From an uncultured Myxococcales bacterium (GTDB lineage: Bacteria; Myxococcota_A; UBA9042), in the NCBI GenBank assembly GCA_903842345.1, contig CAIMLR010000007.1:1-64000 (forward strand): a stretch of DNA of 64,000 nucleotides, read 5' to 3'. Positions within the stretch are counted from its first letter, which is position 1. Every line of letters starts with the position of its first letter. The notes under the pieces were generated by a model that searched no databases, was not told the DNA's origin, and saw only the letters and a list, made by a program, of their open reading frames with translations. This document shows positions 2,028-41,829 of this stretch, one piece after another. A program made the translations under genes and the position numbers.

Positions 2028-2861
2028 ATGCTCCCCCGCAACCTCCTCTTCCTCACCCTGCTCGCCGCGTGCGGTACCACGACCAACGCCAGCGTCGACG
2101 CAACCGACGCCTCCGACACCGGCGCTGGCATCCTGACGGCCGACGCCAGCATCACCGGCACAACCTATGCTGAACGCTGCCAGTCCCTCGCCACCGCCAT
2201 CTGCGCGGGCTGGCAGGACTGCTGCACCGCCATTTCCACGACCTGCGTGGCCGACTTGGACAAGCTCTGCCTGCAGCCCGGCAAGTTCTCCGGCCTCGCC
2301 GACGCCGCCATCGCCGGCAAGCTGGTGTTGGACCCCGCGCTCAGCGCGCAGTGCGATGCCGCGGTCGCCGCCGTCGGGACCAACTGCGGCTCGCGCAATT
2401 ACAGCAATGTGCTCGTCACCTGCCTCTACGCGTGGGTCGATCCGGCCGGCATTGGCGAGGCCTGTGCCGACAGCCGCGACGAAAGCTGCGCCAATGGCGA
2501 GGGCCGCTGTCGCGCGGTCGGCTCGGCAGTGCCGGGTCCCAGCCAACCGACCTGCACCAAGAGCCTGCCGCTCGGCGCCGCGTGTCCTGCCGGCGACGCC
2601 AAATGCGCATGGGGCACGTTTTGCGGCAGCGTGGTGGGCAACCCGGTCTGCATCGCCGAGGGCGCGCTGTGCGGCACGTTCGGCGACGTCGTCGTGACGT
2701 GCCCAGAAGGCGAGGTGTGCGGCAAGGACGCGACCTGCGTGGCGGACCCAGGCGCGGGCGGGGGCGCGGCGTGCGCGGTCGCGGCGGACTGCAAGCGGGA
2801 TCACGCGTGCACGGATGGCAAGTGCGTGCCGGTGTTGTGTGGGGAGTTGGCGGGGAAATAG
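2028..2861 (+). CDS. Cysteine-rich lipoprotein
   Basis: The protein is 277 residues. MLPRNLLFLTLLAAC gives a short lipoprotein signal with the anchor cysteine at residue 15. A Ser/Thr/Asp-rich linker follows, then a helical-looking segment (ERCQSLATAICAGWQDCC), and a C-terminal half with repeated short cysteine units of the type C-x-C-x-G-x-C. This resembles the secreted or outer-membrane Cys-rich lipoproteins that are abundant in Myxococcota; their functions are mostly unknown. All cysteines would need oxidative folding in the periplasm. No Shine-Dalgarno sequence is obvious. The 21-bp repeat tract starts 25 bp after its stop. Confidence 0.65.
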   Translation: MLPRNLLFLTLLAACGTTTNASVDATDASDTGAGILTADASITGTTYAERCQSLATAICAGWQDCCTAISTTCVADLDKLCLQPGKFSGLADAAIAGKLVLDPALSAQCDAAVAAVGTNCGSRNYSNVLVTCLYAWVDPAGIGEACADSRDESCANGEGRCRAVGSAVPGPSQPTCTKSLPLGAACPAGDAKCAWGTFCGSVVGNPVCIAEGALCGTFGDVVVTCPEGEVCGKDATCVADPGAGGGAACAVAADCKRDHACTDGKCVPVLCGELAGK

Positions 2862-3130: not shown

Positions 3131-3226
3131 GCAAACGCCACAACACGCGCGCCGTCCGCTTGTTTTGACGCCGCCCGCGCACCTCCCTATCCTCGTCCAG
3201 TCGCCCATCGCGGCGCTGGGGTCGCC

Positions 3227-6200
3227 ATGTCCATCTCCCGTCCAGTCATCGCGGCTGTTTTCCTTGCCCTCGCGCTTGCCCCGGCGTGCGCGGACATCGC
3301 AATCCTGGGCGCAGACACCGCGCCGGCGGACGTCAGCGGCACCGACGCCGCCAGCGTGGATGGCAGCGACAGTGAGACGACGGATATCGCGACAAATGAC
3401 GTCGTCGGCAATGAATGCCTGACCGATTTTGACTGCCTGGACAAGATCCAGGGCAAGACGCCGTGTATTTCCGCCAAATGCAGCGCCGGTTATTGTCAGA
3501 AAATCCAGAAAGCCACCGGTGTGACGTGCAAGGACAGCAGCTTGACGCCCGGCGATTGCGGCCAGACGACGTGCGACGCCGCGGGGCAATGCGTGGTCGG
3601 CAACGCCAAGGACGGCACGGTCTGCGGCGCGGGCTTGTGTGGCAAGAAATGCGCGGCAGGCAGCTGCATTGCCGCGACGGATGCGGATTATGACGACGGC
3701 AATCCATGCACCAAGGATTTCTGCAACCAGGGAATTCAGGTCAAGCATGAGCCCATCACCGATTTGACGGTGGTATGCGACGACAAGGACGCGTGCACAA
3801 GCGGCGACACGTGCATCCAGGGCGCGTGCAAAGGGACGCTGCTGAGCTGCGCGGACGGGATTCCCTGCACGCTCGACACGTGCACGAGCGCCAAGGGCTG
3901 CGCGCACACGCCGGACAGCAGCAAATGCGATGACGGCAATCCGTGCAGCGTGGACGGCTGCGATTTGGCGCTGGGCTGCACGGTCACGAGCTTGGCGGTC
4001 GGCGTGACGTGCAGCGACGGCAACGAATGCACGGTGGCGGACGCATGTGACAAGACCGGGAGCTGCGCGGGGGTGCCATCGGACGCGTGCAAGTGCGCCG
4101 TCGATGGCGATTGCCTCGGCAAGACGCAGAACCTGTGCATCGGCGCGCTGGTCTGCCAGGGCGGCGGCTGCGTGGCGGTGCCGGGGAACGCGGTGTACTG
4201 CGATGCCAGCCAGAACTCGGCGTGTTTGCAGAACGGCTGCGACCCGGGCAGCGGCAAGTGCGTGCTCAAGAGCAAGAATGAGGGCGCGCCGTGCGACGAT
4301 GGCAACGCCTGCACCTCCGCGCAGACCTGCCAGACGGGCGTGTGCCAGGGCGCCGGCGAGGTGAACTGCGACGACAAGAACGCATGCACCAATGATCTCT
4401 GCGTACCGCAATCCGGCTGCGTGCATGAGGCCAACATCGCCGCGTGCGACGACGGGAACGCGTGCACGACCGGCGATTTGTGCGCCAAAGGCGGCTGCAG
4501 CGGCGCGGCAAAGCCGTGTGATGACAGCATCGCGTGCACCCTGGACAGCTGCGACAAGGCCAGCGGCCAATGCGCGCATGCGACGGATGTCTCGACGTGC
4601 GATGACGGCAATCCATGCACGAGCGACACCTGCGCGCCGGCCAAAGGCTGTGTCTACGCCAACAATGACGCCGCCAAATGTGACGATGAGAATGCGTGCA
4701 CGGCCAACGCGTGCCAAGGCGGAACGTGCACGGCGACGCCGATCTGCGCGTGCAAGACCGATGGCGAGTGCGACGACAAGAACCCGTGCACCGCGGACAG
4801 CTGCATCGCCAGCACGTGCCAGTTCAAGCCGGCGGACGGCGGCGCGTGCGATCCGGCGGACAAATGCCAGAACGCGGGCAGCGGCGTTTGCGGCAGCGGC
4901 GTCTGCAAGGGCGGCAACAGCCCCAAGGATTGCAGCGGCGCGAGCGACGCGTGCCACAGCGGCGCGTGTGACCCGGGCACCGGCCAATGCGGCGCGCTCC
5001 CCAAGGGCGACGGCACGCTGTGCGACGCCGACAAAGACCCGTGCACCGTGAGCGATGCGTGCGTTGCGGGCGCGTGCGTCGCGGGCAAGGCGTTGGATTG
5101 CGGGATGAAGTCGGATGGGTGCAACGTGGGCGTCTGCAAGACCAATGCGGATGGCGCGTATTGCACCGCGCAGGCCAAGGAAGCGGGGACCGGCTGTGAG
5201 GACGGCGCGTATTGCACGCAAGGCGACACGTGCGACGGCGCGGGAACGTGCGTCGCGGGCGCGCCCCAGACATGCGGCCAGGCGTCCGACGCGTGCAACG
5301 CCGGATTGTGCGATGAAGCCAAGAAGGCGTGCGGGACCACGCCCAAGAGCGCTGACGTTGGCTGCGACGACGGGCAATTCTGCACGCCATTTGACCACTG
5401 CGACGGCGGCGGCAAGTGCGTCGGCGAAGGCGCGACGTCATGCCCGGGCACCGCGTGCGCCGCGGGAACGTGCGATCCAGTCGGCCAACAATGCGTCCTG
5501 AGCAGCATCAGCGGTGGCACGGCGTGCAATGACGGCGACCCGTGCACTTTCAACGACACGTGCGACGGCAGCGGCGCATGCCTGGCCGGCCAGACGGTCG
5601 CGTGTCCCGGCACCGCGTGCAGCACCGGATATTGCGATCCAGTGACGGGCGGCTGTGGCTTCAAGCCGCTGGCATCGACAACCGCATGCGACGACGGCCA
5701 GAAATGCACGAGCGGCGACCATTGCGACGGCTACGGCGTCTGCGCGGGCGGGACATGGGACACCACCTGCGGCTGCAACGCCGACGCGATGTGCGACGAC
5801 GGCAACGCGTGCACGACCGACAGCTGCGACCTCGCGAGCAGCACGTGCCAGTTCAAAGTTGTGGACGGTCAGGTCTGCGACGATGGCGACGCCTGCACAA
5901 CCGCCAGCACCTGCAACACGGACGGCGCGTGCGTCGCGGCCAAGCTGTACGACTGCTCGGCGTTCAGCGACACGTGCCACGTCGGCCAGTGCGCCACGTC
6001 AGGCAGCAAACCCTTCTGCAAAGCCGTGGCGCTCGCCGACGGTGCCAAGTGCGACGACGGCCTCTACTGCACAACCGGCGAGACCTGCGCGACGGGCAAG
6101 TGCGGCGCGGGCAGCGCGGTCGTCTGTGGCGCGGCGCCGACCTGCTTTACCGCGGCGTGCACGGAAGCGGCGCTGGGCTGCAGCAACACGGCGGCGGCCA

Positions 6201-7537
6201 AGGGCACGGCGTGTTCGGATGGCGAGTTCTGCACCGTTGGCGACACGTGCGATGGCACCGGCGTCTGTCAGGCGGGCAGCGCGATGGCCAACTTTGCCGT
6301 CTGCGATGACGACGACAAGGGCACCAGCGGCGACTTGTGCCTGAACGCCACCTGCGCCGGCTTCACCACCGTCACCGGCGCGAGCGGCCCCGTCACGCGC
6401 ATCGCGTACGACAACACCGGCGACACGTGGTGGTTCAGCAGCGCGCTGTATTCCGCGCCGAGCATCGCCGCCGCGAGCAAATGGAGCATCTCGCAGGTCG
6501 CCGTCGACGCCAAAGGCGGCTGGGACATCAGCAAGCTGGCCGCGACGCAGAACGGCGGGCCAATCCGCGCGCTCTCGCCGCAAGTCGCGGGCGGCGCCAA
6601 CAACTTCACCGCGTTCCACGTGCCCGGCAGCAAGACGTGGGTGGTCGGCGGCAGCTCCGCATTTGGCAAGAACGCCGCTTCGCTCTACGCCGCGACGACC
6701 GAGTGGTACGACGTCGACTTCCGCACCAGCGGCGCGACCGGCCATAGCCTGCTCACCGGCTTCAACACGGCCGAAGGCGCGATTCTCGGGCGCTGCCAGG
6801 GCGCGTGGGCGGACACGACGTCCGCCTGGACGTGCGACAAGAGCGCCGTCGCGGCCACCCTCGGCGTCGGCGCGGCCGTCAGCTTCTACAATCCGCTGTG
6901 TTTTCCCATCGGCTCATGCGGCACGACGGTCGGTTTTCTCGGCGCGCTGGAGAAATGGAACGGCAGCTTCGCCACGCAGCTTGACACCATCGCCGCGACC
7001 GGCGCGACCGGCGCATGGAGCGCACTCAACGCCGGCCCCAACTTCAAGGTCGCGACCAGCCTCCCCATCGGCGGCGTTCACGCCTACGACACGTCGTACT
7101 ACACCGTCACCGGCGGGAGCCTCGCGTGGGCGGTCGGCCCATCGGGCAGCCTCGCCTACATCGCCAGCGGCTCATCGGTGCTCAAGGGCGCCGCGCTCTA
7201 TGGCACGAACTACCAGTTCACCGCCGTGACCGCGATGAGCGGCTTCGTGCTGGTCTGGGGCTACAAGACGGACACGCTCACCGGCGCGTTGGTACCCGTG
7301 CTCCTCACGCATGCCGACACGGCCAACCTTCAAGCGGACAGCGCCAGCTGGGTGGAACACGACCTCGCGCTCCCGGCGTACGACACGGCGGTGTGTGTCA
7401 ACAGCGCGTTCTCCAGCTATGGCATGGCCAAAGGCGGCAGCAGCGGGACGACGTTGGCGCTCGCAGCGAACTATTGCGGCAATACGGCCTACAGCAATCC
7501 GCCCAATTTGCGCGGCATGATCTACGTCCGCAAGTAG
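3227..7537 (+). CDS. Large cysteine-rich repeat protein with a C-terminal propeller-like domain
   Basis: The protein is 1436 residues. The ATG at 3227 begins an export signal (MSISRPVIAAVFLALALAPACA); the cysteine at the end may be a lipobox. An acidic Asp/Ser/Thr linker follows. Residues about 64-1045 are tandem cysteine-rich units built on CDDGNPCTxDxC and GxCxxGxxxxC; a sampled stretch of about 90 residues has 16 cysteines. Such units occur in secreted and surface proteins of Myxococcota. Residues about 1046-1436 have few cysteines and are rich in Gly, Ser, Thr and aromatics, with alternating strands suggesting a beta-propeller or beta-sandwich. Likely a surface stalk with a terminal recognition domain. 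It must depend on strong periplasmic disulfide formation. Confidence 0.8.
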   Translation: MSISRPVIAAVFLALALAPACADIAILGADTAPADVSGTDAASVDGSDSETTDIATNDVVGNECLTDFDCLDKIQGKTPCISAKCSAGYCQKIQKATGVTCKDSSLTPGDCGQTTCDAAGQCVVGNAKDGTVCGAGLCGKKCAAGSCIAATDADYDDGNPCTKDFCNQGIQVKHEPITDLTVVCDDKDACTSGDTCIQGACKGTLLSCADGIPCTLDTCTSAKGCAHTPDSSKCDDGNPCSVDGCDLALGCTVTSLAVGVTCSDGNECTVADACDKTGSCAGVPSDACKCAVDGDCLGKTQNLCIGALVCQGGGCVAVPGNAVYCDASQNSACLQNGCDPGSGKCVLKSKNEGAPCDDGNACTSAQTCQTGVCQGAGEVNCDDKNACTNDLCVPQSGCVHEANIAACDDGNACTTGDLCAKGGCSGAAKPCDDSIACTLDSCDKASGQCAHATDVSTCDDGNPCTSDTCAPAKGCVYANNDAAKCDDENACTANACQGGTCTATPICACKTDGECDDKNPCTADSCIASTCQFKPADGGACDPADKCQNAGSGVCGSGVCKGGNSPKDCSGASDACHSGACDPGTGQCGALPKGDGTLCDADKDPCTVSDACVAGACVAGKALDCGMKSDGCNVGVCKTNADGAYCTAQAKEAGTGCEDGAYCTQGDTCDGAGTCVAGAPQTCGQASDACNAGLCDEAKKACGTTPKSADVGCDDGQFCTPFDHCDGGGKCVGEGATSCPGTACAAGTCDPVGQQCVLSSISGGTACNDGDPCTFNDTCDGSGACLAGQTVACPGTACSTGYCDPVTGGCGFKPLASTTACDDGQKCTSGDHCDGYGVCAGGTWDTTCGCNADAMCDDGNACTTDSCDLASSTCQFKVVDGQVCDDGDACTTASTCNTDGACVAAKLYDCSAFSDTCHVGQCATSGSKPFCKAVALADGAKCDDGLYCTTGETCATGKCGAGSAVVCGAAPTCFTAACTEAALGCSNTAAAKGTACSDGEFCTVGDTCDGTGVCQAGSAMANFAVCDDDDKGTSGDLCLNATCAGFTTVTGASGPVTRIAYDNTGDTWWFSSALYSAPSIAAASKWSISQVAVDAKGGWDISKLAATQNGGPIRALSPQVAGGANNFTAFHVPGSKTWVVGGSSAFGKNAASLYAATTEWYDVDFRTSGATGHSLLTGFNTAEGAILGRCQGAWADTTSAWTCDKSAVAATLGVGAAVSFYNPLCFPIGSCGTTVGFLGALEKWNGSFATQLDTIAATGATGAWSALNAGPNFKVATSLPIGGVHAYDTSYYTVTGGSLAWAVGPSGSLAYIASGSSVLKGAALYGTNYQFTAVTAMSGFVLVWGYKTDTLTGALVPVLLTHADTANLQADSASWVEHDLALPAYDTAVCVNSAFSSYGMAKGGSSGTTLALAANYCGNTAYSNPPNLRGMIYVRK

Positions 7538-11150: not shown

Positions 11151-12452
11151 CTAGTAACAAGTCTTGCCCAACGCATCGCAGCACGTGCCACTCGAATTGC
11201 CGGACGTCGCCTTGAAGAACGTGCAAGCACCTTCGTTCTTGCACAGCTTCGATTGTTGGCAATCGGCGTCGCTGCCGATGACGCACTTGCCGGTGCCAAG
11301 ATTGCAGCTGGGTGGGTCGCCGCACTCGTCACCCAGCGTACAAGCCGCGCCATCCGCACAGCCGGTGCTGGCCGTACAGTCCGCCTGGCTGACCACGGTG
11401 CATTCCGATGCTTGGCCCGTTGCAAACGTCTTAAGTTTGCATTTGCCCAGGTCCTTGCAGGGCAAGTGGTTGATGCAATCGGCGTCGGATCCCGGCATGC
11501 AAACGCCATCCTTGGCAACGCAGCTGCCGCGCTCCTCGCAGTAGTGGCTGGCTTGGCAATCGGCGTCCGTCGCGGCAACGCAGAACCCGCCGGCGGCAGT
11601 GCATTGGCCGCTGAAGACGCACGATGAGGAGGCTTTGCATTCTGTGTCGTTCAGCGCCTGGCACTTGCCGTCCTTGGCCGAACAGTAGCCAAAGCTCTTG
11701 CACTCCTGGATGGCGGCACAATCGGCGTCCTTCGCGATGACGCACACGCCGTCCACGGCCGAGCAGCGCCCAAGTACCGTGCAGTTCGACCCCATATGGC
11801 AATCGGTGTCTGCCACAGCCCGGCAATAGCCATCGACCGCCTGACAGAGTCCCTCCTGCTGGCATTTGCTGACGCAGTCGAGGTTGGTTGCCGCGACGCA
11901 GCGGCCGTCGCCAAGCGAGCAGTGGCCGTAGCCGGCGCAATCTTGGGACGCCTGGCATTGCCCGTCGCTCATGGCGACGCAAAGCGAGTTGCTGGTTGGC
12001 GTACACCGGCCGTCGGCCGAGCATTCCGATTCACATTTGTCGTTCCCACAGGACGCGGCCATGAAGCAGCCACCATGCCAGGCGATGCAATAGTCCCACC
12101 CGACGCAATCGGTCGACCCGGCGCAGTCTGCGTCTGTCGCCGCGACGCAGTGACCGCCCTGCTCGCTGCATAGGCCATTCTCACGGCAGCCGCGCGTATT
12201 GGCACAGATGCCGATCCCGATCGCCGCGGTCGCGTCGAGCGAGAGGTGGCAGGCAAGCGAAACGTCGGACGCCCCCAACGTGTCACCGTCGGTGATCCCT
12301 GATTTGGCGTCCGACGTAGTGAATGGCGCCGTCGATTGCACCCGCGAGCCGCATGCAGCGAGAAGATGAACGAGGACGAGACCGTGCACACAACGTCGCA
12401 GCGCGTGGGAAAGTGGTCGGTCAAACCGTGTATCCCGCGTCATCACGAGCAT
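11151..12452 (-). CDS. Cysteine-rich repeat lipoprotein with DADC units
   Basis: The protein is 433 residues from the ATG at 12452; the ATG at 12443 is an alternative. A basic n-region and GLVLVHLLAAC give a lipobox cysteine near residue 34. From about residue 70 to the end the protein consists of about ten or eleven units of 25-30 residues with the pattern C-x2-3-G-x-C-x4-DG-x-CVAxxDADC. The ATDADC/GSDADC ending recurs, with variants such as DTDC, DTEC and NLDC. Each unit has an even number of cysteines, implying local disulfides. Likely a surface-exposed rod. It has no recognised enzymatic domain. The family is typical of predatory or soil Myxococcota. Confidence 0.75.
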   Translation of the reverse strand: MLVMTRDTRFDRPLSHALRRCVHGLVLVHLLAACGSRVQSTAPFTTSDAKSGITDGDTLGASDVSLACHLSLDATAAIGIGICANTRGCRENGLCSEQGGHCVAATDADCAGSTDCVGWDYCIAWHGGCFMAASCGNDKCESECSADGRCTPTSNSLCVAMSDGQCQASQDCAGYGHCSLGDGRCVAATNLDCVSKCQQEGLCQAVDGYCRAVADTDCHMGSNCTVLGRCSAVDGVCVIAKDADCAAIQECKSFGYCSAKDGKCQALNDTECKASSSCVFSGQCTAAGGFCVAATDADCQASHYCEERGSCVAKDGVCMPGSDADCINHLPCKDLGKCKLKTFATGQASECTVVSQADCTASTGCADGAACTLGDECGDPPSCNLGTGKCVIGSDADCQQSKLCKNEGACTFFKATSGNSSGTCCDALGKTCY

Positions 12453-15707: not shown

Positions 15708-15757
15708 TCGGCCCCGGCGCTTTTTTGCCCACCCATCTTGTCTTCAGGAGAACCGCC

Positions 15758-18241
15758 ATGGCTGATGCCGCTCACAACCAGGCCCGCCGCGACGCAACCC
15801 AGGATGCGCGGCTTCCCGCACTGACCAACTTGCTCTATGCCATCATGGCGTTGTGCACGGCTGGCATCGGCGTCTCGATCTACCTCGCGCGCCACAAGCT
15901 CAACATCCTGTACACCAAGGGCTACATCTCCAGCTGCAACCTCGGCGGCTCGATCAACTGCGACGCCGTCAACATGTCCGGCTGGTCTGAGATCAAGGGC
16001 GTGCCGATCAGCGTGATGGGCATCCCGACGTACGCCGTGATGATCTGGCTGACCTACAAGGCGCTGACGTCGCTGAAGTCCAAGGACAAGGCGACGCTGG
16101 ACATGGGCATGACCGCGCTGAACGGCGTCGTCGGCATCGGCGTGTTGGCCAGCCTGCTGTCGTGCGCGCTGATTTGGTACTCGTCCACGCAGGTCGGCGC
16201 GTACTGCCTGTACTGCGTCTCGCTCTACCTCATCAACTTCGCCGTCACCGGCTTGGCCGTCGCCGCGGGTCCCAAGTCCATCGGCCTCGGCATCCAGAAC
16301 GCGGTCAAGGGCGTCATCAGCTTCGCGGAGCCTTTGCCGCTCTCGCTCGGCGTCTTCGTCATCGCCGGTGGGCTGGCGTGGTACGGCTACGATTCGACCA
16401 AGGCGCGCATGGAAGTCGGCCGTTTGGCGCTGGAAAAAGCGGAGTTGGATCAGGCCTTTGCCGGCGACGCCGCGCCCGCTGAACCCGCAGTTGTCGCCAA
16501 TGGCGGCGGCTCGGCTCCGGCGGCGCAACCGACTGCGGCACCTGCGCCCGCGCAACCGGCAGGCGTTGGCGTCCCGAGCGGCAAGAAAACCGAGGACGGC
16601 TACACGTTCTACCTCTCGCCCATCGACAGCGAGGACTACATCTACGGCAATCCGGACGCCAAGGTCACGGTCGTCAAGTACTCCGATTTCGAGTGCCCAT
16701 ACTGCAAATACCTCGCGCTGACGATGGAGCCGGTCAAGGCCAAATACAAGGACAAAGTCCGCTTCATCATGAAGCATTTCCCCATGAACCCGCAGTGCAA
16801 CCGCTACATGGCGGGCTATGACAAGCATCCGAATGCCTGCAACGCGTCCGTCACCGGCATCTGCGCGGGGCGTCAGGGCAAGTTCTGGGAAATGCACGAT
16901 AAGCTGTACGCTGCGCAGCCCAAGCTGGACCCGGAGTCGAACCGCGGCTACGCGCAGGAGCTCGGCCTGGACATGGCGAAGTACGACGCGTGCGTGAAGG
17001 ACCCGTCGGTGCTCCAGCGCATCAACAAGGACATCGACCTGGCCGTGAAGGCGGGCATCAACGGCGCGCCGCGGACGTACATCAACGGCCGTCTGGTCAC
17101 CGGTTCCGCGTCGACGGCGATCCTGGAGTACTACATCGAGAAGTCGCTGGAGCATCCGGAGGCGCAGGGCGCGGCGGCGGCGGCTCCGGTCGTGATGGCG
17201 CCCAAGCCCGACGGTTCGCACATGATCGCGGGCAAGACGGCGACGACGTCGTACTTCATCGATCCGTATGAAGCGACGCTGACCCAGGATGGCAAGGCCG
17301 TGAGTGTGCCGAACGTCGAACCCGCGCTCGCGAGTTGGACGGAGGCGGATGCGGCGTGCAAGAAGGCCGGCAAGCGCCTGTGCACGGAAGAGGAATGGAC
17401 CGCCGCGTGCACCGGCACGCCGCCGATCGACGAGAACAAGAACAATCAGTTCGCCGACGACAACGTGGAAGGCAACATGTACCCGTACGGCTCCTTCTAT
17501 GAAGTCGGCCTGTGCCGCGATCAGGAAGACAAGTACAAGGGCAAGGCCGGCAAGACGGGCTCCATGGAGAAATGCCGGACGCCGAGCGGCATCTTTGACC
17601 TCGCCGGCAACATCGGCGAGTGGACTGGCGCCAGCAAGGAAACCGCGGGCTTGATGGGCGGCCACAACAGCTCGGGCGAGCGCGCGGCGTGCAATCAGCG
17701 CTCCGCGAGCTTTGGCATCGGCAACCGCAACATGACCACGGGCTTCCGCTGCTGCGCGGATTCCGACGTCCAGCAGGGCAAAATCGACGAGAGCAAGATC
17801 GCCAAGGCCGATGGCGAAATGGTCGGCAAGCCGGTGCCGGCATTTGACGCCAAGGACACGTCCGACAACGCCATCAGCACCAAGGACTTCAAAGGCAAGG
17901 TCACGCTCATCAACTTCTTTGCCAGCTGGTGCGGGCCGTGCAAGAAGGAATTCCCGGAGTTGGTCAATCTCTACAAAGAGAACAAAGCCAAGGGCTTCCA
18001 GATCGTGTCGATCGGCGTGGACCGCGAGAGCGGCAAGTCATTGGAATTCGCCAAGGGCTTTGAGGCGACGTGGAGCGTGATTTCTGACGCGGAAAGCGAG
18101 CTGATGGGCCAGTTCAACGTCTACTCGATGCCGGCCACGTTCATCATCGACCGTCAGGGCATCGTGCGGTTCATGGACACCGGATTCAAGCCGGAGGAGC
18201 AGCTTGAAAAACTGCGCTCGGCCGTCAAGAGTCAGCTTTGA
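15758..18241 (+). CDS. Four-module redox protein: VKOR, DsbA, FGE-like and TlpA/thioredoxin
   Basis: The protein is 827 residues; AGGAGAA precedes the ATG. Residues about 20-190 are a VKOR domain with several membrane helices, a loop pair C60/C68 (spacing of eight, as in VKOR) and C150-LY-C153. After an Ala/Pro linker comes a DsbA-like thioredoxin domain (about 285-475) with C313-PY-C316 and the cis-Pro loop NGAPRT. Residues about 495-668 resemble formylglycine-generating/SUMF1 domains (GKRLCTEEEWTAAC, IFDLAGNIGEWTG, TTGFRCC). Residues about 686-827 are a TlpA-type thioredoxin with FASWC725-GPC728. VKOR should reoxidise DsbA with quinone, driving disulfide formation. VKOR-DsbA fusions are known; the two extra modules are not familiar to me. 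It heads a long same-strand run. Confidence 0.88.
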   Translation: MADAAHNQARRDATQDARLPALTNLLYAIMALCTAGIGVSIYLARHKLNILYTKGYISSCNLGGSINCDAVNMSGWSEIKGVPISVMGIPTYAVMIWLTYKALTSLKSKDKATLDMGMTALNGVVGIGVLASLLSCALIWYSSTQVGAYCLYCVSLYLINFAVTGLAVAAGPKSIGLGIQNAVKGVISFAEPLPLSLGVFVIAGGLAWYGYDSTKARMEVGRLALEKAELDQAFAGDAAPAEPAVVANGGGSAPAAQPTAAPAPAQPAGVGVPSGKKTEDGYTFYLSPIDSEDYIYGNPDAKVTVVKYSDFECPYCKYLALTMEPVKAKYKDKVRFIMKHFPMNPQCNRYMAGYDKHPNACNASVTGICAGRQGKFWEMHDKLYAAQPKLDPESNRGYAQELGLDMAKYDACVKDPSVLQRINKDIDLAVKAGINGAPRTYINGRLVTGSASTAILEYYIEKSLEHPEAQGAAAAAPVVMAPKPDGSHMIAGKTATTSYFIDPYEATLTQDGKAVSVPNVEPALASWTEADAACKKAGKRLCTEEEWTAACTGTPPIDENKNNQFADDNVEGNMYPYGSFYEVGLCRDQEDKYKGKAGKTGSMEKCRTPSGIFDLAGNIGEWTGASKETAGLMGGHNSSGERAACNQRSASFGIGNRNMTTGFRCCADSDVQQGKIDESKIAKADGEMVGKPVPAFDAKDTSDNAISTKDFKGKVTLINFFASWCGPCKKEFPELVNLYKENKAKGFQIVSIGVDRESGKSLEFAKGFEATWSVISDAESELMGQFNVYSMPATFIIDRQGIVRFMDTGFKPEEQLEKLRSAVKSQL

Positions 18242-22506: not shown

Positions 22507-22563
22507 TAGCCTCTGGACCGATTGCCCCGTTGCGCGCGCCATGGACGCAGGAAGACGACGCAC

Positions 22564-25500
22564 ATGATTCACGGCCAGCGGAATTGGCGTGCACGGGCAA
22601 CAGGATGGCTCCTGTCGCTGGCCTGCGCGCTGATGGCCGTGGCGCCCGCCGACGCGCTCGTCGTGGGCACGTACCCATCCGTGCCCAAGGCGTTCAAGGT
22701 CTATGGCAAGTCCGTGCAGATGGGCGCCAGCCTCGTCACCAACTTTGTCGACTACCGCTTCAACGACAAACTGCTCGCCCAAAGCTCCGACACGGTCAAG
22801 ATCAGCCAAAAGATGCCGGAAGACGCGGTCATCGTCGCGGCGTATCTCTACTGGGGCGCGTCGGAGCCCAACAGCGGCTATGACAACACCGCAGTCGTCA
22901 CCTTGGCCGACGGCGCGCAGCAGACTTTGGCGGCCGACGGCTGCGAGACGCGCACCGATCCAACGCCAAATGGCACGGGCGCGCACTACTACTGCCGCCG
23001 CGACATCACGTCGCTCCTGCAATCGCACCCCGGCGCCGACCACTGGAACGGCAATTACACGGTCGGCGGGATTGACGCCAAGGTCGCCAACATCGCGCAG
23101 GTGACGGCGCAGAATCCCAACGCGTGCAACGGCTTGACCAAGCAGAACGGCCAGCCGGAGAGCGTGTGCTGCGAGCAGGGCGACATCGGTTGCCAGGCGC
23201 GTTACGCGTCGTGGTCGATGGTTTTTGTCTACGACACCAAGTTCAGCGAGACAACGCAGCGCGACGTGTTCCTCTACGACGGCTACGTGCTGCTGGACGA
23301 ACAGCAGAACTCGCTGGGGCAAATCAAGTTCACGATCAATGACTTTCTGGTCGCCGATCCGCCCGACGCGCAGCTGACCTACTACGCGATGGAAGGCGAC
23401 AAGCAGTTGGGCAATCCCGAGCAGGACCCCGGCAACAACGGCCCGGACAGCCCGCCGTGCGCGACGTGCTGGGACTTCGTGTCCTTCAACGGCGTTGAGT
23501 TGACTGGCGGCGCAGGCAACAACGAGCCGCACAACATCATGAACTCGACGCCGGAGACCGGCATCGATCTCGACACTTTTGACGTCTCGACGCTGGTCAA
23601 ACCCAACGACACCTCCGCGTCGCTCGTCGTCTCCTCAGGCAACGGCTCGCTCGCCGACAACAACCAGCAAGTGGCGATGGCCGGCGCGGGCGAGTTTTTC
23701 GTCTACGGTTGGTCGCTCCTGCAGGTCAACCGCAAGGCGCCAAACTTCAAGAGCACCGTCAACAAGTTCTACGCCAACTTCACGGAAGCCTCCCCCGGCG
23801 ACGTGCTGACATACACCGACGACTTGCTCAACACCGGCCCGTTGGATTCTGACAATACCACGCTGAAATTCGCGACGTTCCCGCCGCCCGGCACCGACTA
23901 CTTGCCAGGATCGACGACCGTCGACGGCGTCGTCGTGCCCGATGTGGGCGGCCAGAGCGCGCTCGCGGGCGGCCTGAACCTCGGCGTGCTGACCAACGCC
24001 GCGGGCGGCAAGTCCAACCGCACCGTCACGTTCAAGGTCAAGGTCAAGGCCGTGCCGGGCGTCACGGAAATCGACAGCGCCGGCTTGGTCTCCTACACCT
24101 ACGTCAGCGCCAAATACAGCGATTCCATCGCCACGCAGACTTCCGTGGTCAAGCTCGTCCCGCCGCAGCTGGCACCGCCGTCCTTGGCCGTCGCGCCGTT
24201 CAAGCAGAGCCCCGCGGGCACGGTCACGTTTACGCTGACGCTGCAGAGCCTCTCCGCGACCGCCATTTCCGTCGACACGCTGGGCTTTGACCTGCCGGCG
24301 GAGCTGGCGTTCATCTCCGCGACGGGTCCGGGCACCAACAAGTCGACCGCGACCGGCGGCGTGAGCAACAGCGGTCAGGTTCGCTTTGACGTCGTGCCGA
24401 TCCCGTCCGGCCAGCAGGCCATCTTCACCATCACGGCAAAGGTCAAGGATCTGGCGGCGCTGCAGGCGTTGGGCATCAATCCGATCGCCGGCCACATCGT
24501 CAACAGCCAGGGCAGCGTGGTGCTGGGCACCAAGACCTACAAGACGGACGATCCCAACCAGCCGGGCGCGGAAAATCCGACGGCGCTGACGCTGCAGGTG
24601 CCGTCCAACCTGACGCAGTCGACCAAGACGGTGACGGATCTGTCGCCGGACACGCCGCTGCTGCCGGGCGATCAGGTGAAATTCACCATCAATATCCAGA
24701 ATTCCGGCGCGGGCGACGCGACGGTCAACATCAGCGATCCGATTCCGTCCGGCCTGAGTTTCGTGTCGTCCCAGAGCCCAGAGCTGACGCTGGCGGGCTC
24801 CGTGCTGACGGGCAGCGTCGTGGTGCCGGCGGGCCAGACCAAGTCGCTGAGCTTCACCGCCCAGGTCAAAGCCGACACGCCGCCGGGCGCGACCTTTCAG
24901 AACGTGGCGACGCTGGCGCCGACCGATGGCCAAACGCCGACGGTGGTGCAGACGCCGGTGACGACCGTGCAAGGCGGGCCGGATTTGTCGACGTCGGTGC
25001 TGACGGTCGCGGATCAGAATGGCGGCGATCTGGAGCCGGGCGATGTGCTGGGCTACACGCTGACGCTGACGAACACGGGCAAGATCGCGACGGGCGCGCT
25101 GCAGATCGCCCTGCCCGTGGACAAGAGCCTGGAAGGCGTGACGGCGATCGACGGCGGCGGCGCGCTGGATGCGGGCAGCAACAGCATTTTGTGGAGCTCG
25201 GTCGGCATCCCGGCGGGCGGCCAGCTGGTCCTGCACTTCACCGCGAAGGTCAAGGCGGCGACGATCAACGGCACGGCGATCGCCGCGATTGCGACCGTGA
25301 CGGGCGGGCAATTGCCCAAGCCGCAGACGATCAGCGCGACGGTGAAGGTGCAGGCCAATCCCAACATCGCGACGTTCACGGACGTGGCGTCGTCGTCGGG
25401 CGGCAGCACGTTCAATCCGGGCGATACCGTCACGTACACGATCCAGCTGCAGAACACCGGCAAAGGCGTGGTCACCAACGGCGTCCTGACGACGACGCTG

Positions 25501-28500
25501 GACCCGGCGCTGGGCACGATTGTCGCGGCGGCGGGCGGCGCGGTGGCGGGCCAAACGGTGACGTGGCCGGTCGGCACGCTGCAGAACGCCGATCCGCTGA
25601 AGACGCTGACGGTGACGGCCAAGCTCGTGACGCCGCTGCCGCAGGGCAAGTCGGTGAGCAATCAAGTGACGCTGACCGGTGACGGTCTGCTGGCGCCCGC
25701 GCTGTCCGACGATCCGGCCAAACCGGGCAAGACCGACCCGACGGTGTTTGCGGTGACGTCCGCGCCAAACCTGACGACTTCTGACAAGAGCTACGTCGAC
25801 TCCAACGGCGGCTCCGTCCAGGGCGGCGACAAGCTCACGTTTTTCCTCCACCCGCGCAACACCGGCAGCAGCCCGGCGAGCAACGTGGTCGTGACCGACG
25901 TTCTCGCGCCGCAGCTCACCCAGGTCACCGTCACCGGCGGCACGTTCAACGCCGCGACGTCGACCGTCACGTGGAACGCGATTCCCAGCCTCCTGCCCGG
26001 CGACAAGCCCGAACTGAGCTTCACCGCCGTCGTCGACAAAGCCACGCCGAGCGGCACGACGATCAGCAACACCGGCAAGATCAGCTTCACGGAGACGCCG
26101 TCCAGCGCGACGACGAACACGATCAGCTTCCAGGTCGTCAACCTGCCCGACTTTGGCGCGAGCACGAAGTCCGTCAATGGCGCGCAGATCCAGGCCGGCG
26201 GCGCGGTCACGTACAGCCTGAACATCGTCAACTCGGGCAATCAGGCGGGCACCGGCGTGGTCGTGACGGACGTGCTGCCCAAGGAGCTGGAGAACATCCA
26301 GGTCGGGCAAAGTGGCACGTACAACGCGGCAACGGGCACTGTGACGTGGACGCTGGGCAACGTGGCCGCGGGCGCGAGCACGCCGCTGACGGTGAGCGGG
26401 ACGGTCAAGAAGCCCCTCGACAATGCCACGCACGTCTGCAATCAGGCGCAGATCAAGGCCAACGAGAATCCGGCGGCATCCTTCACGAGCCCGCCCAATA
26501 CCGCGCTGACGCCCGCGGGGACGCCGACCTGCTTTGACGTCGCGAGCGCGCCGGTTGTCGTCTTCCAGAAGAACGTGTTTGCGACGGCGGGCGGCCAACA
26601 GCTCAATCAGGCGACGGTCAAGCCCAAGACCGCGCTGACGTGGTCGATCAAGGTCAAGAACACCGGCAATGCGCTGGCCAAGGCCGTGACGGTTGCGGAT
26701 CCGCTGCCGGCGGGGCTTGAGAACATCGTGGCGCTGGACGGCGGCGCGGTGGATGCCGCCAAGAACCAGGTGACGTGGCCGGCGATCGCCGCGCTGGGCG
26801 TGAATGCCGCCGATGAAGTGACGTTGCGCTTCACGGCGACGGTCAAGACCGGGCTGGACGACGGCACGGCGATTCAGAACCAGGCGCTGCTGACGTTCAC
26901 GGGCCAGCCGACGGCGCAGAAGTCCGATGATCCGACGACGCCGACGGTCAACGATCCGACGACCGTGAGCGTGCAGTCCAAGGTCGATTTCTCCAAGGCC
27001 AAGCTGACGGTCGTGGACGTCAATGGCGGCGACGTGCGCCCGGGCGACGCGCTGACCTACACGCTGACGCTGCGCAACGAGGGCGATGGCGCGGCCAAGG
27101 CGACGACGGTGACGCTGCCGCTGGATGCGCGCCTGGGCGACGTGACGGCGAGCAATGGCGGCGTGGTGCAAGGTGCGGGAACGCCGGGTGGCACCGTGAC
27201 GTGGGCGCTGGGCACGCTGGCGCCGGGCGATGCGGCGACGCTGACGGTCCAAGCGAAGGTCAAGACGCCGCAGCTCAACGGCGCGGTCATCGTGGAGCAG
27301 GCGCAGATCACGGCGACGGGGCTGCAAGTGCCGGTGCTCTCGGACGCGGACCTGACGACGGCGATTCGCGAGCCGACGATGCTGACGGTTGTCGCGAAGG
27401 CGGACCTGTCGCCGAGCCATTGGACCGTGCAGGACGTCAACGGCGGCGCGCTGGAGCCGGGCGATCAGGTGAACCTGGGGCTGGTGCTGCAGAACAAGGG
27501 CGACGCGCTGGCGCAGCTTGTCAACATCCAGACGTTGCTGCCGCCGGTTGGCCTGACGGACATCCACGTTTTTGACGGCGGCACGCTCACGGCGGGGACG
27601 ATCGCTTGGACGGTGCCGATTGTCTCGATTACGCCGACCGGCGACGTGACGCTGCACCTGAGCGCGACGGTCGCGCCGGGGACGCCGGACGGTTCGCTGC
27701 TCAATGTCATCGCCCAGATCCCGACGGTGGCGCCGAATCCGACGGCGACGCTGAAGGTCGTGGCGCAGCCGAACTTGAGCCAATCGGCGCTGACGTCCGA
27801 CGACGAGAGCGGCTGGGTGCAGAAGATTGGCCAAGCCGCGCCAGGGCACGTGGTGCGCCTGGAAGTGAAGCTGAAGAACAGCGGCAAGGCGGCGGCGGAG
27901 AATGTGACCGTGACGCTGCCGCTGAGCGCGAAGTGGGCGAGCATCGCGGCGCTGACGGGTGGGACGGTCGCCAACAACGTGGTGACGTGGACGGTGGCGT
28001 CGATTCCCGCGGGTGGCACGCTGACGCTGACGGCCAAGGGCACGATCGCGGCGGCGGATCAGGACGGCGACACGCTGCCGCTGCAGGCGCAGGCCGCGGC
28101 GCAGAACCTGGCGACGCCGCAGGCGATTGCCGGCCAGCCGGTGATGGTTGTGAATCGGCCGATCCTGCAAGTGCAAAAGAGCTACACGGACCTGACGGGC
28201 GGCCATCTGTTCCCGGGCGACAAGGCGCGGTTCACGCTCACGGTGCTCAACGTCGGCAATGCGACGGCGCAGCAGGTGCAGATCAGCGACGACCTGCCGC
28301 CGCAGCTCGTGAATCCGGTGGCGCAGTCGGGCGGCAGCGTGACGGGCGCAACGGTGAATTGGCTGCTGCCGACGCTCGCGCCCGCGCAGACCGCGACCGT
28401 GACTTTTGAGGCGACGATTGGCCCGAACCTGCCGACGGGGACGATCATCGTCAATCAGGCCAAGGCCAAGGCGCAGAACGCCCAGCTGCAACTGAGCAAC

Positions 28501-31500
28501 GCGCTGAACATTCCGGTGAAGTACCCGACGCTGCAGGTGGACGCCAAGCTGACGCCGGAAGCGCCCGCGACCACGCCCGCGCAGCCGGGCGACACCGTGA
28601 CGCTGCAGGTGATTGTGACGGTGCCGACGGCGGAGAACGCCAGCAACGTGACGGTTTCCGTGCCGGTGGACGCGACGGTCTTTGACGTGACGGCACCCAA
28701 GGGCGCGACCTGGGACGATGCCCAGAAGCTGCTGACGTGGACGGTCAAGGCCAATGGCGGGCTGGCGAACATTCCGGGCGGCGCGTCCGTGGCGCTGGCG
28801 GCGACGCTGCGGGTCAAGGCAACGGCGGCCAACGGCGCGACGGCGCAGGGCAAGGCGATCGCGCGCGAAGGCGAGACGGGAATCAGCTATGACGCGAAGC
28901 CGGCGACGCTGGCGATCGTCGCGATTCCCAAGCTGAAGGTGCTGAAGACGGTCGAGGATCTGAACGGCGGCAAGGTCGCTCCCCTGGACGTGCTGCGGTA
29001 CACGATTGCGGTCTCGGTGACGGGCCTGTCGGCCGCGGAGGACGTCAGCATCGAGGACGTGCTGGATGACCATCTGGAAGTCGTGACGATTGGCCAGGGC
29101 GGCAAGCAGACGACCGCGGGCGGCGTGACCAAGCTGACCTGGAGCGCGAAGGGCGCGACGGCGCTGGCGGCCGTGGTGCCTGGCCAGACGGCGACGCTGA
29201 CGTTTGACGCCCGGGTAAAGGCGGACACGCCGGACGCCGCGACGGTGCTGAATCAGGCGCAGGTCAAGGCCGATGCGGTGGCGACCGCCGTGCCGTCCGA
29301 CGATCCGAATACGCCGGCGCTGAACGACGCGACGGTTGTGCGGGTGCGGACTCAGAGCGCGCTGGAAGCGTCGACCAAGACGGCGAAGGACGACAACGGC
29401 GGCGCACTGCTGCCGGGCGAGACGGTGACGTGGCGCATCACGGTTGTGGCGACGTCGCCGCAGCCGCTGACCAACGTGCGGCTGCTGGACGTGGTGCCGG
29501 CGGGCATGACGTACGATCCAGGGTCGACGACGCTGAACGGCAACGCGGCGCCGGACGTGGCGGGCAGTTCCCCGCTGACGGCGGGCCTTGCGCTTGGGAC
29601 GCTGCAGGCGGGCACGGCGAACGCGGCAATCGTGACCTTCCGCACGCGGCTGCGCGCCGACGCGGTGGAGGGCGGTCAGGTCAGCAACACGGCGACTGCG
29701 ACGGCCGACAACGTGCCGCCGACCGCGATTGGCCCGGCGACGCTGAGCATCGGCAAGGGGCCGTCGATTCGCCAGACGCAAAAGACCGCGCAGCTCATCG
29801 ACACCAACAACAATGGCCTGGCCGATTTGGGCGAGGCGATCGCGTACACCGTGACGATCCGCAATACCGGCGCGAGCGCGGCGGAACTGGTGACGCTGGA
29901 CGATCCGCTGCCGAATACGACGCACTACGTGGGCGGGAGCCTGACGCTGGACGGCAAGCCGCTGAGTGACGCGGGCGACGGCGACGCGGGACGCTTTGAC
30001 GTGGCGACGGGCAAGATTCACGTCGACGCGGGCACGATCGAGGCGGGCAGCCAGCGCGTCGTGACGTTCCAGGCGAAGATCCTCGGCGGCGTTTTGGTGT
30101 CCAATCAGGCGACGGCGCAGGCCAAGGGTCTGGCGGCCGAGTTGTCAGACGCGGACAACGACGACAGCAACGGCAACCAGCCAACCGTGACGCAGGTGGG
30201 ACCCGCCGCGCCGCTGGTGACCGTGACCAAGGCTGTGCAGGACGAAAATGGCGGTGCCGTGCAGGCGGGCGATTGGCTGCGGTACACGCTGACGGTCGTG
30301 AACAACGGCAACGCCAAGGCGGACAGCATCATCCTGATCGACACGCTGCCCAAGGGCATGGACGCGCTCAAGGACGCCGACGTGCTCCTGCCGCCCGGCG
30401 TGGTGCTGCAGAACGACGGCGCGACGCTGAAGGTCGTGGGCATGGCCGTGCAGGCGGGCGAGAGCGCGGTGGTGTCGGTGCGCACGCGCGTGTCGGCCAA
30501 CGTCGCGGATGCGGCGACGATCTGCAACATCGCCAGGGCGGACATCCTGCTGCCGGCGGGCACGGTGCATGCGGAGTCGAAGCCCGCGTGCGTGACGACC
30601 GGCGCGCAAATCGGCGAAGGCGCAATTTCCGGCGTGATTTTTGAGGACGTGGGCATCGACGACAACGTCTTTGAGGCCGAGACCGATTTGCGTTTCCCGC
30701 ATTTTCAGGTCGCCGTGCTGCCGCCCGTCGGCGTGGAAGGTCCCGTGCTGACGGCCATCGCCGACGACCAGGGGCAATACCACGTGCTGCACGTGCCCAA
30801 CGGCCAGCGCCGCGTGCGCGTGTTGTCCCCAGGTGGCGCAGTGTTCCTGGAGCGGACGATTGACGCGCCCGGACCGCAGTCCGGCAAGCTGGATCTGTCG
30901 CTGCGTCCGACGGGCCGCGTGTATGACGCCCATGCCGGGACGACGACGCCCGGCGTGCGGCTGTGGCTGCGCTATGACGAAGGCGATCCGGTCGCGCCCA
31001 ACACGCTCCTGGCGGACGACGCGCTGCCGCAGGGCCAGCAGGGCCAGACGACCGACGCCTCAGGCGCCTACCTGTTTTCGCCGCCCGCGGGCCGCGCGTA
31101 TCGGATTGAGCTGGCGACCGTCTCCGCAGGCTGGGCATTCCCAGTGGCAGGCCACGCGCCGGAGCCGGGGATCGCGCTGCTGGACAAACAGGGGCTCGTC
31201 GTCAGCGACGCCCTGCCCCACATCGCCGGGAACACGCTGCCGCGCTACCTCACGCGCTTCTCGCTGCAAGGCGCGGCCAACACGCCGCCACCGCCGCCGC
31301 CGTCGGGGGGCCGTGGCGCTACGCCGCAGGCAAGCAACGGTCCGCCGCCGCCGCGCCACAACCATTTGCCGGTCGAGCAGCTGACAAGCGCGATTTCCGT
31401 CGGCGTGCGGCTGTCCAAGGCGCAAGCGCAGGTCGGTGACTTGCTGTACGCAACGGTGACGGTGCAGAACCATTCGAGCGCCGGGTTTGCCGCGGACGCG

Positions 31501-34500
31501 CTGACCGGTCGCGGTGGCGTGGAGCTGCGCGACCTGCTGCCGACGGGCCTCAACCTCGTGCCGGGCGCCGCGGATCTGACGCTGGTGGGCACGAACAACC
31601 TGCCCGTGAAGATTCCGCTGGCGCAGCTGGACGCGCCGCTCATGGTCGTGCATCGCATTTCGCCGACGACCGGCAAGTCCGTGGGTCTGGACCTGCCGCC
31701 GGGCGGAAGCCTGACCCTGCGCGCGCAGATGGTCGTCACGCCGACCGCAAAGCCGGGTCAGCAGCTGGAATTCGCGGCGCAGCTGTATGACGTGTCGGGC
31801 CAGCAGTTGAGCGGTCGGTCGACGGCGCAGTTGCTTGTGCAGGCCGATCCGCTGTTTGACAAGGGCATGGTGCTGGTCAAGGCGTATTGTGACGGCAACA
31901 ACAACGGCGAGCAGGACGACGGCGAAGACGGCTTGGCCGGCGCGCGCGTGTATGCGGACATTGGCCAATTCGCGACGACGGACGCCTATGGCCGCGCACA
32001 CTTGATGGACTTGCCGCCGGGCAATCACCTGTTCAAGCTGGATCCGGACACGCTGCCGCCGGGTTCGACGGTCATCGGCGACGAGCAGAAGGTGCTGTAC
32101 CTGACCCGCGGCATTTCACTGCCGCTGACGTTCCCGATCCAGTGCAAGTTTGAGGCCGTTGGGCCAACGCGCGTGGAAGCGACGGCGACGTCGGCGCGCC
32201 CGCCGGAGGATGCGCCAACGCCGGGTCCGGGCGTGGTGCCGGTGGCCGTGGATGCCGCGTCGCTGACCATCGCGGTGGACAGCAAGGTGACGACCCAGCG
32301 CTTCCTGCGCGCCCGCCTGCTCGGCACCGACAAGAAGCCGCTGGGCGATGCGCGGATGGCGTCTGATCCCACCTCGACCGCACTGGAGCCGGGCGCACCG
32401 ATCGTGCTGCTCGTTGAGCATTCCGGCGGCTTTGCCCGCCACGGTCTGGAGATTCGCGAGTTGGAGGATGGCGGCCGTCTGGGCGCGCTGGTTGTCGAGC
32501 AAGTCGATGGCCGCGATCCGCCCAAACAGGTGATGCTGCGCGCGCGACCAGGCTTCCCGGGCATCGCGGATCTGACGCGCGGTCGCCGGTATGCGCTGCG
32601 GATGCGCGCGGAGACGGAGTGGGGCACGCGCGTGTGGTCCGCGCCGATTCCGTTTGAAGTGCGCGACCATGTGAAGGATCCGCGACAGGACGCGTTCACG
32701 CTGCCCAGCCGGCCGCCGCGGCTGCTGATCAACGGCAATCCGTTTGACCTGGACGCTGCGGGGCGCGGCGCGCTGCTCGTCGATCGCCCGGCCGATGGCA
32801 AGATGCTGATCAGTTTGCGGCAAGCCGATGGTGCGGGCCGCGATGAGTTTGTGACCGTGGCCGCGCAAGGCCCCAAGTTCCTGCCGGCGGGCGCGGCGAT
32901 GCCGATGGCTGCGACGACGACGGACGCGGCGATCTTTGGCGCGCCGCTCCTGGAAGCGCTGCAGGCGCAGGCCAACGCGATGCCGACGGCGGCGCCGCCC
33001 GTGGTGAAATTCGAGGCCGCCGCGCCGACCGCGCTTTCCCCGTCGGCGGCGAAGGCGTCGGGGATGGATGCGGCGGAGCTGCGCGTGATGTTACCGCCCG
33101 GACCGCTGGAGCTGGCGCAACCTGAGCTGGGCGTGCACGGCAAGACGCTGCCGACCAACCGGGTGGAAGTGCAGGGCCAGACGGCGCTTGTCGACGACGA
33201 AGGCAACTTCTACGCGCTGGTGCGGCTGCCGATTGGCGCATCGACGCTGACGATTGCCGCCATCGACAAGGCCGGCAATCGGGCGATTGTCGAGCGCGCC
33301 GTGACGGTCAAGGACCGCGCGCTGTTCCTGTTGGCCATCGCCGACGGTTCCGTGAGCCACGTGGGCGCGCACTTGCAGGAAGTCGACCAGCCCGGCTCGC
33401 TGGCGATTGGCAACACGCAGCTCGCCGGCCGCGTCGCGCTGTACGCCAAAGGTCGCGTGAGCGGCGAGTTCCTTGGCTTGAAAGACCTGTCTTTCACCGC
33501 GCACGTGGACACGGCCAAGGATCCGAACCTCCAGTCCTTTGCCACGAACTTGATTGACCCGACCAAGTTCTACCCGGTCTACGGCGACGCCTCCGTGGCG
33601 ACGCAGGACGTGAAAGCGCGCGGCCAGTTGTACATCCTCGTGGAAGCGGACCGCACCAAGTTCCTGATCGGCAACTTCGCCGCGCGGCTGCAGGGCATCG
33701 AGTTGCTGCGCTACGACCGGACGCTGTACGGCGCGTGGCTGGAGTTCAGTCGCGTATACGGCGGGTTTGAGACCGCAGTGAAAGGCTTTGTCGCCCAGCA
33801 GGATCGCATGGTCCAGCGCCACACGGACGTGATGCGCGGCACCGGCGGCTCGCTCTATTACCTGTCCGTGCGCGACGTCGTGGAAGGCTCGGAGCGCATT
33901 GACCTCGTCGTCCGCGACCGCATCTCAGGCATGGAACTGGGCCGCATTCCGCAGGCGCGCAACACGGACTACGTCATCGACCCGATGCAGGGCCGCATCA
34001 CGTTCAAGTCGCCGGTTTCTGGCGCGGTCGATGGCACGCTGGCGATTGGCCAGACCGGTCTCGCGGGCCAAAACCTGACGTGGAATGGCCATCCGCTGTT
34101 CGTCGAGACCACGTACGAGGCGCGCGGTATCCAATCCACGGATTCCCTGTCTTTTGGCGGCCAGCTCCGCGAGAAATTCGCCAACGGCCGCGTCGACGTC
34201 GGTGGCAGCTACGTGCAGGAAGGCCGCGCCGACGCGCCCACGTACCGCGTGGCGGGCGGCGACGTGACGGTCAAGCTCGGCGACCGCAGCAAGGCGACCG
34301 CTGAGTACGCGTTCAGCCAGTCGCGGGACACCTTGCTGTCCGTATCGGACGACGGCGGCCTGACTTTTGGCCAGCAAACGCAGGCGACGACGACAACGAG
34401 CGCGGGCGCGGCGGTCCAAGGCCAAGCCGTGAAGGTGGCGGTTGACCTCGACCTGCGCGACATGTTCGGCCCGTCCACCGATCCGACGCCGACCGACCTG

Positions 34501-40287: not shown

Positions 40288-40373
40288 GGGAGAGTGGCCG
40301 AGCGGTTTATGGCAGCGGTCTTGAAAACCGCCGAGGTGAATAGCCTCCGGGGGTTCGAATCCCTCCTCTCCCG
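40288..40373 (+). tRNA. tRNA-Ser(UGA)
   Basis: This is an 86-base class II tRNA with anticodon TGA at 40322-40324, reading UCA. The acceptor GGGAGAG pairs fully with CTCTCCC, and the T-loop is TTCGAAT. The long variable arm typical of serine tRNAs (around GAGGTGAATAGCCTCC) is present. The CCA end is not encoded, unlike the other three serine tRNAs here. Confidence 0.93.
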
Positions 40374-40474
40374 CCCGCAGTGAAGTGCCGACACGGTCGC
40401 AAACTGGTCGCGCAATCAAAGAAATCCTCACCGGGAGCTGAACAGGCAACGCCTTGAAGGCTTCCGCAGATGAC

Positions 40475-40566
40475 GGAGAGGTGGCCGAGTGGCTGAAGGC
40501 AACGGTTTGCTAAACCGTCATAGGGTTTAAATCCTATCAGGGGTTCGAATCCCCTCCTCCCCGCCA
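40475..40566 (+). tRNA. tRNA-Ser(GCU)
   Basis: This is a 92-base class II tRNA with encoded CCA and anticodon GCT in the loop TTGCTAA, reading AGC and AGU. The variable arm is long. The acceptor GGAGAGG pairs with CCTCCCC except for an A-C mismatch at position 3:70. The T-arm and D-arm are normal. The mismatch may reflect a sequencing error, C-to-U editing or tolerated variation. Confidence 0.92.
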
Positions 40567-40622
40567 GCAACCCCGGTTGCGGCTCTTGTGTCTGACTCTC
40601 AGTGTCTTCCCGTCTTTGCAAC

Positions 40623-40696
40623 GGGCTCATAGCTCAACTGGATAGAGCATCGGTCTACGAAACCGAAGGTTGCTGGTTCGAGCCCAGCTGTGCCCG
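40623..40696 (+). tRNA. tRNA-Arg(ACG)
   Basis: This is a 74-base class I tRNA with anticodon ACG in the loop CTACGAA. In bacteria A34 of this tRNA is deaminated to inosine by TadA so that CGU, CGC and CGA can be read. The tadA gene starts about 120 bp downstream. The acceptor GGGCTCA pairs with TGTGCCC except for a T-T mismatch at 5:68. CCA is not encoded. Confidence 0.92.
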
Positions 40697-40817
40697 CCCC
40701 CTCAAGATTCACGCTTCACACGCCCGCGCCGTTGCAGAAGCGGGCGTCTGCTGCAGTAAGTGGCGCGAACGCCGCCAATCGATGTCGCCAAGTGGACGAT
40801 CGGGCGAACCAGAGCCG

Positions 40818-41342: not shown

Positions 41343-41480
41343 ACAGCTTGCACCCAACGCCAGCCTGCGCTATCCTTCCGCGGCTTGCCCGTTCGGTCGC
41401 GCGCCGGGGTCAAAGGCAAGCTGTCAGGCACAATCCGTATGGCAGCGCGTCCTTCTGACAATGCGCGTGCCCCACTCACT

Positions 41481-41568
41481 GGAGAGCTGTCCGAGTGGCT
41501 GATGGAGCCTGACTCGAAATCAGGTGTACCGAAAGGTATCGGGGGTTCGAATCCCTCGCTCTCCGCCA
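41481..41568 (+). tRNA. tRNA-Ser(CGA)
   Basis: This is an 88-base class II tRNA with encoded CCA and anticodon CGA in the loop CTCGAAA, reading UCG. The acceptor GGAGAGC pairs perfectly with GCTCTCC. The variable arm (TGTACCGAAAGGTATC) and T-arm are typical. Confidence 0.93.
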
Positions 41569-41591
41569 GTGAATTTTGTTCATGTGCCGAC

Positions 41592-41629: not shown

Positions 41630-41696
41630 CAGTGCTTGCCAGCCGGGGCGCCCTTAACGGCGCCCGCACCGCTGGTTTCCAGGCGAGACAAAGAAC

Positions 41697-41787: not shown

Positions 41788-41829
41788 CGACCGGGCGATG
41801 CGCGGCGCGCAAAGTGTGAGTGTAAGACA

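Follow-up and report, generated by a model that had tools for sequence, protein, structure and literature searches.

A single-chain VKOR-DsbA-FGE-TlpA fusion in Myxococcota: a candidate oxidative-folding machine with a non-catalytic FGE-fold module

VKOR-DsbA fusions carry out quinone-linked disulfide formation, and bacteria usually separate such oxidation from disulfide proofreading, the first being the work of DsbA/DsbB and the second that of DsbC/DsbD. Four transmembrane helices plus a fifth have been described for those proteobacterial VKORs that end in a Trx-like domain (PMC4555120), and the FGE-type C-type-lectin fold can bind ligands, as in the DGR variable proteins TvpA and Mtd (PMC5006420). 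In the literature searched, of which coverage was partial, VKOR-Trx fusions were described and a fusion to FGE and TlpA was not found. A VKOR-DsbA-FGE-TlpA machine is thus apparently undescribed; VKOR-DsbA fusions themselves are already known, and it is the addition of the FGE-fold and TlpA modules that we provisionally regard as new.

The window, by which we mean the whole stretch of 64,000 nucleotides analyzed, is part of a draft genome (G000) of 5.85 Mb in 50 contigs whose close relatives are 'uncultured Myxococcales' MAGs. Positions 15758..18241 on the forward strand form a single stop-free frame of 827 residues. A Shine-Dalgarno-like AGGAGA (15746..15751, +) is followed 6 nt downstream by the ATG, and this start codon is kept among close orthologues. 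The initial annotation had read the frame as a four-module redox fusion, and this proved to be real, since a Pfam profile search of the whole protein found VKOR, DsbA, FGE-sulfatase and TlpA/AhpC domains in the one frame, all above their cut-offs. The cysteines C60, C68, C150-LY-C153, C313-PY-C316 and C725-GP-C728 were each found at the residue that it had given, and both RLCTEEEW and TTGFRCC lie in the FGE-like module.

The VKOR module (residues 28-166; 15839..16255, +) scored 72.9 bits against a cut-off of 27.5 (PF07884). Its loop pair C60/C68 and the C150/C153 pair of TM4 are invariant in 58 of 58 aligned sequences, and Ser74, six residues past C68, is conserved in 57 of the 58. Hydropathy and AF2 helices fit four transmembrane helices plus a fifth in the VKOR region, the fifth being placed at residues ~193-212 (16334..16393, +; AF2 helix 193-235). 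On this predicted topology the suggested membrane tethering is supported, and the DsbA, FGE and TlpA modules would all be periplasmic. A flexible Ala/Pro-rich linker follows (residues 230-275; 16445..16582, +), with pLDDT <50 over residues 230-266 and a length that differs from orthologue to orthologue. The DsbA-like module (residues 292-461; 16631..17140, +; PF13462/PF01323) matched Thioredoxin_4 at residues 292-461 (86.2 bits against 23.2) and DSBA at residues 304-460 (69.4 against 25.6). The CxxC, which is CPYC here (C313-PY-C316), is retained in 61 of 64 sequences and cis-Pro438 (GAP438) in 65 of 65, while four extra cysteines (C347, C361, C369 and C412) are invariant in 64/64 or 65/65. 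At the C-terminus lies a TlpA/ResA-like thioredoxin module (residues 689-820; 17822..18217, +) with C725-GP-C728 and cis-Pro792. It matched AhpC-TSA (PF00578) at residues 689-805 with 93.7 bits against a cut-off of 26 and Redoxin (PF08534) with 89.2 bits, also above cut-off, the two together spanning 689-815. The CxxC of this module is retained in 55 of 55 sequences, CGPC is the most frequent motif (43/69), and ResA 1st9 is the closest solved structure (E 6.8e-22). The module falls below the NCBIfam cut-offs for ResA (99.4 against 170), DsbE (78.3 against 123) and TlpA (57.7 against 230). The full-length AF2 model had a pTM of 0.44, with the FGE part poorly modelled.

The third module, an FGE-fold domain (residues 490-680; 17225..17797, +), matched FGE-sulfatase (PF03781) at residues 518-627 with 44.8 bits against 23.3, a match limited to positions 88-193 of the 255 in the profile. 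Modelled alone with a deeper alignment, the full-length domain (residues 486-680) reached an AlphaFold2 pLDDT of 95.4. The best Foldseek match to this model was SUMF2 (pFGE, PDB 1y4j), the inactive paralogue of human FGE, with E 9.7e-09, prob 1.00 and a TM-score of 0.62 by query length; SUMF2 was also the closest solved relative by phmmer (3e-06). Eight cysteines (C534, C542, C551, C586, C606, C645, C665 and C666) are invariant in 64 of 64 sequences. In human FGE the structural disulfides are C235-C346 and C218-C365, and the catalytic pair is C336/C341 (PMC4505483). When the two were aligned, C534/C551 fell on C218/C235 with an equal spacing of 17 residues, and C665 fell on C365. We assigned C645 as the equivalent of C346 from its spacing, 20 residues before C665 as against 19 before C365, and by this assignment four of the eight cysteines would coincide with both human structural disulfides. 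Residues 607-644, where equivalents of C336/C341 would be expected, contain no cysteine. The comparison with true FGE at its copper and catalytic cysteines, which the initial annotation had proposed, therefore shows the catalytic copper-binding pair to be missing and the structural-disulfide cysteines to be kept. Analysis of cysteine co-loss gave four presence patterns among 47 sequences, a range with little variation, and was consistent with a C534-C665 pair.

Whole-protein searches found collinear homologues in every one of the 21 further genomes of this family that were searched, at 90% to ~49% identity; in three of them (G009, G015 and G018) the alignment was broken into two adjoining segments within a single open frame. 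We also searched 284 Myxococcota genomes with an FGE-module profile (A2), and the scores were bimodal, with the subfamily at or above ~140 bits and the background at or below ~100 bits. Forty subfamily loci, either from outside the main orthologue group or supplementing it, were scanned with profiles of the four modules. Twenty-three had all four in one frame, 10 had a VKOR-DsbA-FGE gene and a separate TlpA gene, three (L182-L184) had a degenerate DsbA plus FGE, and the remaining four were cut by contig ends. The four-domain order is present as four-in-one frames in ~12 Myxococcota family-level groups. One of the 23 four-module loci (L151; G026:C37) carries a second DsbA module before FGE and TlpA.

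Each of the 10 split loci has its TlpA gene immediately upstream of VKOR-DsbA-FGE and on the same strand. In most of them the TlpA stop codon and the downstream ATG overlap by 4 bases (stop end 1909 and ATG 1906 in L169, for example, and stop end 1362 and ATG 1359 in L170). Most of the separate TlpA proteins have an N-terminal hydrophobic leader. No obvious further neighbours shared by the split pairs were seen when the short flanks were read by eye. The split loci formed one group in the VKOR-DsbA-FGE tree (SH-aLRT 96), on which fused versus split is one change; since TlpA is C-terminal when fused and upstream when split, that change was not a simple gain or loss of a stop codon. The position of TlpA directly upstream of VKOR-DsbA-FGE in one clade, usually with a 4-base overlap, shows that the parts belong together, and the recurrence of the fused chain or two-gene unit across Myxococcota argues for a real machine. 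In L182-L184 the VKOR profile was unmatched and the DsbA CxxC has become DxxS, yet the eight FGE cysteines are kept; L183 and L184 still have a Trx-like C-terminus with a CxxC. It is possible that these degenerate relatives act as a non-redox receptor. Retention of the FGE cysteines where the DsbA CxxC is lost shows them to be independent of the VKOR-DsbA electron path, as expected for structural disulfides.

The fusion was the only VKOR match in its genome, in which no match to DsbB and two matches of the DsbD/CcdA type were found. Since no other VKOR and no DsbB were found, the fusion probably oxidises the Cys-rich secretome in this genome. A single VKOR match was also seen in 10 of the 22 genomes of the family. 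In other parts of the phylum, frames with VKOR and ~400-550 residues are common, likened by their length to plain VKOR-DsbA. Cys-rich lipoprotein-like products are encoded in the window at 2028-2861 (+), ~3200-7537 (+) and 11151-12452 (-), the second having Dictyostelium-type CTDC repeats (Dicty_CTDC, PF00526); on this weak evidence of proximity they are plausible clients. Most of the family's loci retain the NAGPA, PEGA and Kelch genes downstream of the fusion, and this neighbourhood was not found at the more distant L036 and L040 or around the split pair. The window also contains a 4555-residue frame (22522-36189, +) with many repeats that by eye resemble DUF11-type surface repeats, and four tRNA-Ser, one tRNA-Arg and a small SRP RNA within 1.7 kb (40288-41931, +). 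Proteins in which a DsbA-like unit is repeated in tandem, two to four times per chain, were seen at two places in this genome (G000:C36:146278-147588 and G000:C36:317038-318897) and at loci among L041-L101, with a TlpA-like gene near those at L041, L043, L050, L058, L073, L099 and L101.

We propose, with a probability of about 0.6, that the fusion is a single-chain inner-membrane oxidative-folding machine whose role is probably the folding of Cys-rich secreted proteins. VKOR would generate disulfides de novo, passing electrons to quinone, and would re-oxidise the tethered DsbA-like module, which would hand the disulfide to newly exported Cys-rich proteins; for this quinone-VKOR-DsbA-client electron path we draw on knowledge of the family and on the intact motifs. 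The FGE/SUMF2-type C-type-lectin-like domain, without catalytic cysteines, would be fastened by its own disulfides (putatively C534-C665, C551-C645 and two more among C542, C586, C606 and C666). It would most likely be a rigid domain for binding or docking, keeping hold of clients or setting the position of TlpA with respect to DsbA. Because the FGE fold can bind ligands, such a client-holding or docking role seems the most economical reading, and we read the module as a binding or spacer domain stapled by disulfides. TlpA, linked to the system through fusion and gene pairing, would be a second thiol-disulfide exchanger on the same clients, more likely a proofreading reductase or isomerase than a second oxidase. 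Two observations incline us to proofreading: CGPC is the most frequent motif, and DsbD/CcdA-type proteins exist in the genome. It is tempting to speculate, though we hold this only tentatively, that the protein is a bacterial one-chain counterpart of the eukaryotic oxidative-folding relay, with a generator, a carrier, a lectin-fold client holder (the FGE fold recruited as client receptor) and a proofreading thioredoxin, specialised for the Myxococcota Cys-rich secretome.

Other readings of the protein were weighed against this one. The initial annotation had suggested that the SUMF1-like module could modify cysteines, that is, that it is an active formylglycine-generating or other Cys-modifying enzyme acting on clients oxidised by the neighbouring modules. 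The above-threshold match to PF03781 would favor this, as would the existence of FGE-family members that do other chemistry, such as EgtB and OvsA, which have a DinB-type iron-binding domain. Judged from its residues, however, it is most unlikely that the module modifies cysteines enzymatically; the other two suggestions of the initial annotation, that this module chooses clients and that TlpA isomerises or reduces, may still hold. An active FGE was rejected on the missing C336/C341; four of the eight cysteines match human structural ones; the nearest structure is that of the inactive SUMF2; no DinB-type domain, the mark of the EgtB/OvsA/SenA sulfoxide/selenoxide synthases, was matched in the Pfam scan; the cysteines outlast the DsbA CxxC in L182-L184; and the GFRCC eight-cysteine pattern, or seven of its eight, is common to most other Myxococcota FGE-like proteins sampled. 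The two PF00884 sulfatase matches in the genome both lack a C/SxPxR motif near the N-terminus, which also counts against an active FGE. A role in sulfatase activation was rejected on this ground and because C-x4-C was not found in those FGE-like segments of the same genome that could be read by motif search (a subset of 14 domains).

The part played by TlpA is harder to decide. It might be a second oxidase, with VKOR feeding both DsbA and TlpA for more capacity or a wider client range and nothing being reduced, a possibility that we take seriously but doubt. TlpA shares a chain with the generator, or a two-gene unit elsewhere, and within one chain VKOR could act as its oxidant; however, CGPC is typical of reducing thioredoxins, the DsbD/CcdA-type membrane proteins could supply electrons, and L183 and L184 keep their CxxC-bearing C-terminus though VKOR and DsbA are degenerate, so that it is not oxidisable by that route there. 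A narrower role, in which the FGE-fold and TlpA modules act for a single dedicated client (such as a c-type cytochrome or some envelope enzyme) and not for the secretome as a whole, seems improbable to us. TlpA/ResA proteins frequently have a role in cytochrome maturation, and the NAGPA, PEGA and Kelch genes would fit such a client, but they were not found at L036, L040 or around the split pair, and nothing else in the genome matched VKOR. Finally, the frame is open far upstream of its start, as might be seen if an assembly chimera or chance frame had joined separate genes. The likelihood of this is negligible: dozens of independent genomes, with identities of 31-90%, carry the same module order in one open frame, which rules out the assembly error against which the initial annotation had cautioned.

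If the single-chain oxidative-folding machine is correct, a quinone-driven oxidase and a TlpA-type exchanger are joined through a dead FGE-fold domain, and their joint action on one client becomes testable. It would suggest a folding solution for Cys-rich secreted proteins. The protein also shows the FGE fold put to a second use close to cysteine chemistry, with no formylglycine being formed, and it is a caution for automatic annotation as 'sulfatase-modifying factor'.

The known VKOR-DsbA and VKOR-thioredoxin fusions, such as the Synechococcus VKOR homologue, share with this protein the four-redox-Cys core, the fifth transmembrane helix and a C-terminal thioredoxin-fold partner, and quinone-linked disulfide formation is expected here as in them. 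Unlike VKOR-DsbA fusions, this protein adds FGE-fold and TlpA modules and four extra invariant DsbA cysteines. Its TlpA module has the AhpC-TSA/Redoxin fold, WCGPC and cis-Pro in common with the ResA/TlpA/DsbE thioredoxins, but differs in being fused to a disulfide generator and in scoring below the named-subfamily NCBIfam cut-offs. The FGE module resembles SUMF2 in having the FGE fold without the catalytic pair, whereas it is shorter (~195 residues), has eight cysteines, is bacterial and lies within a redox fusion. With SUMF1 it shares the fold and cysteines equivalent to C218-C365 and C235-C346, but without C336/C341 it is not a member by function. The DGR variable proteins (TvpA, Mtd; PMC5006420) likewise use an FGE-type fold for ligand binding and not catalysis; in contrast to them, the FGE module here is highly conserved.
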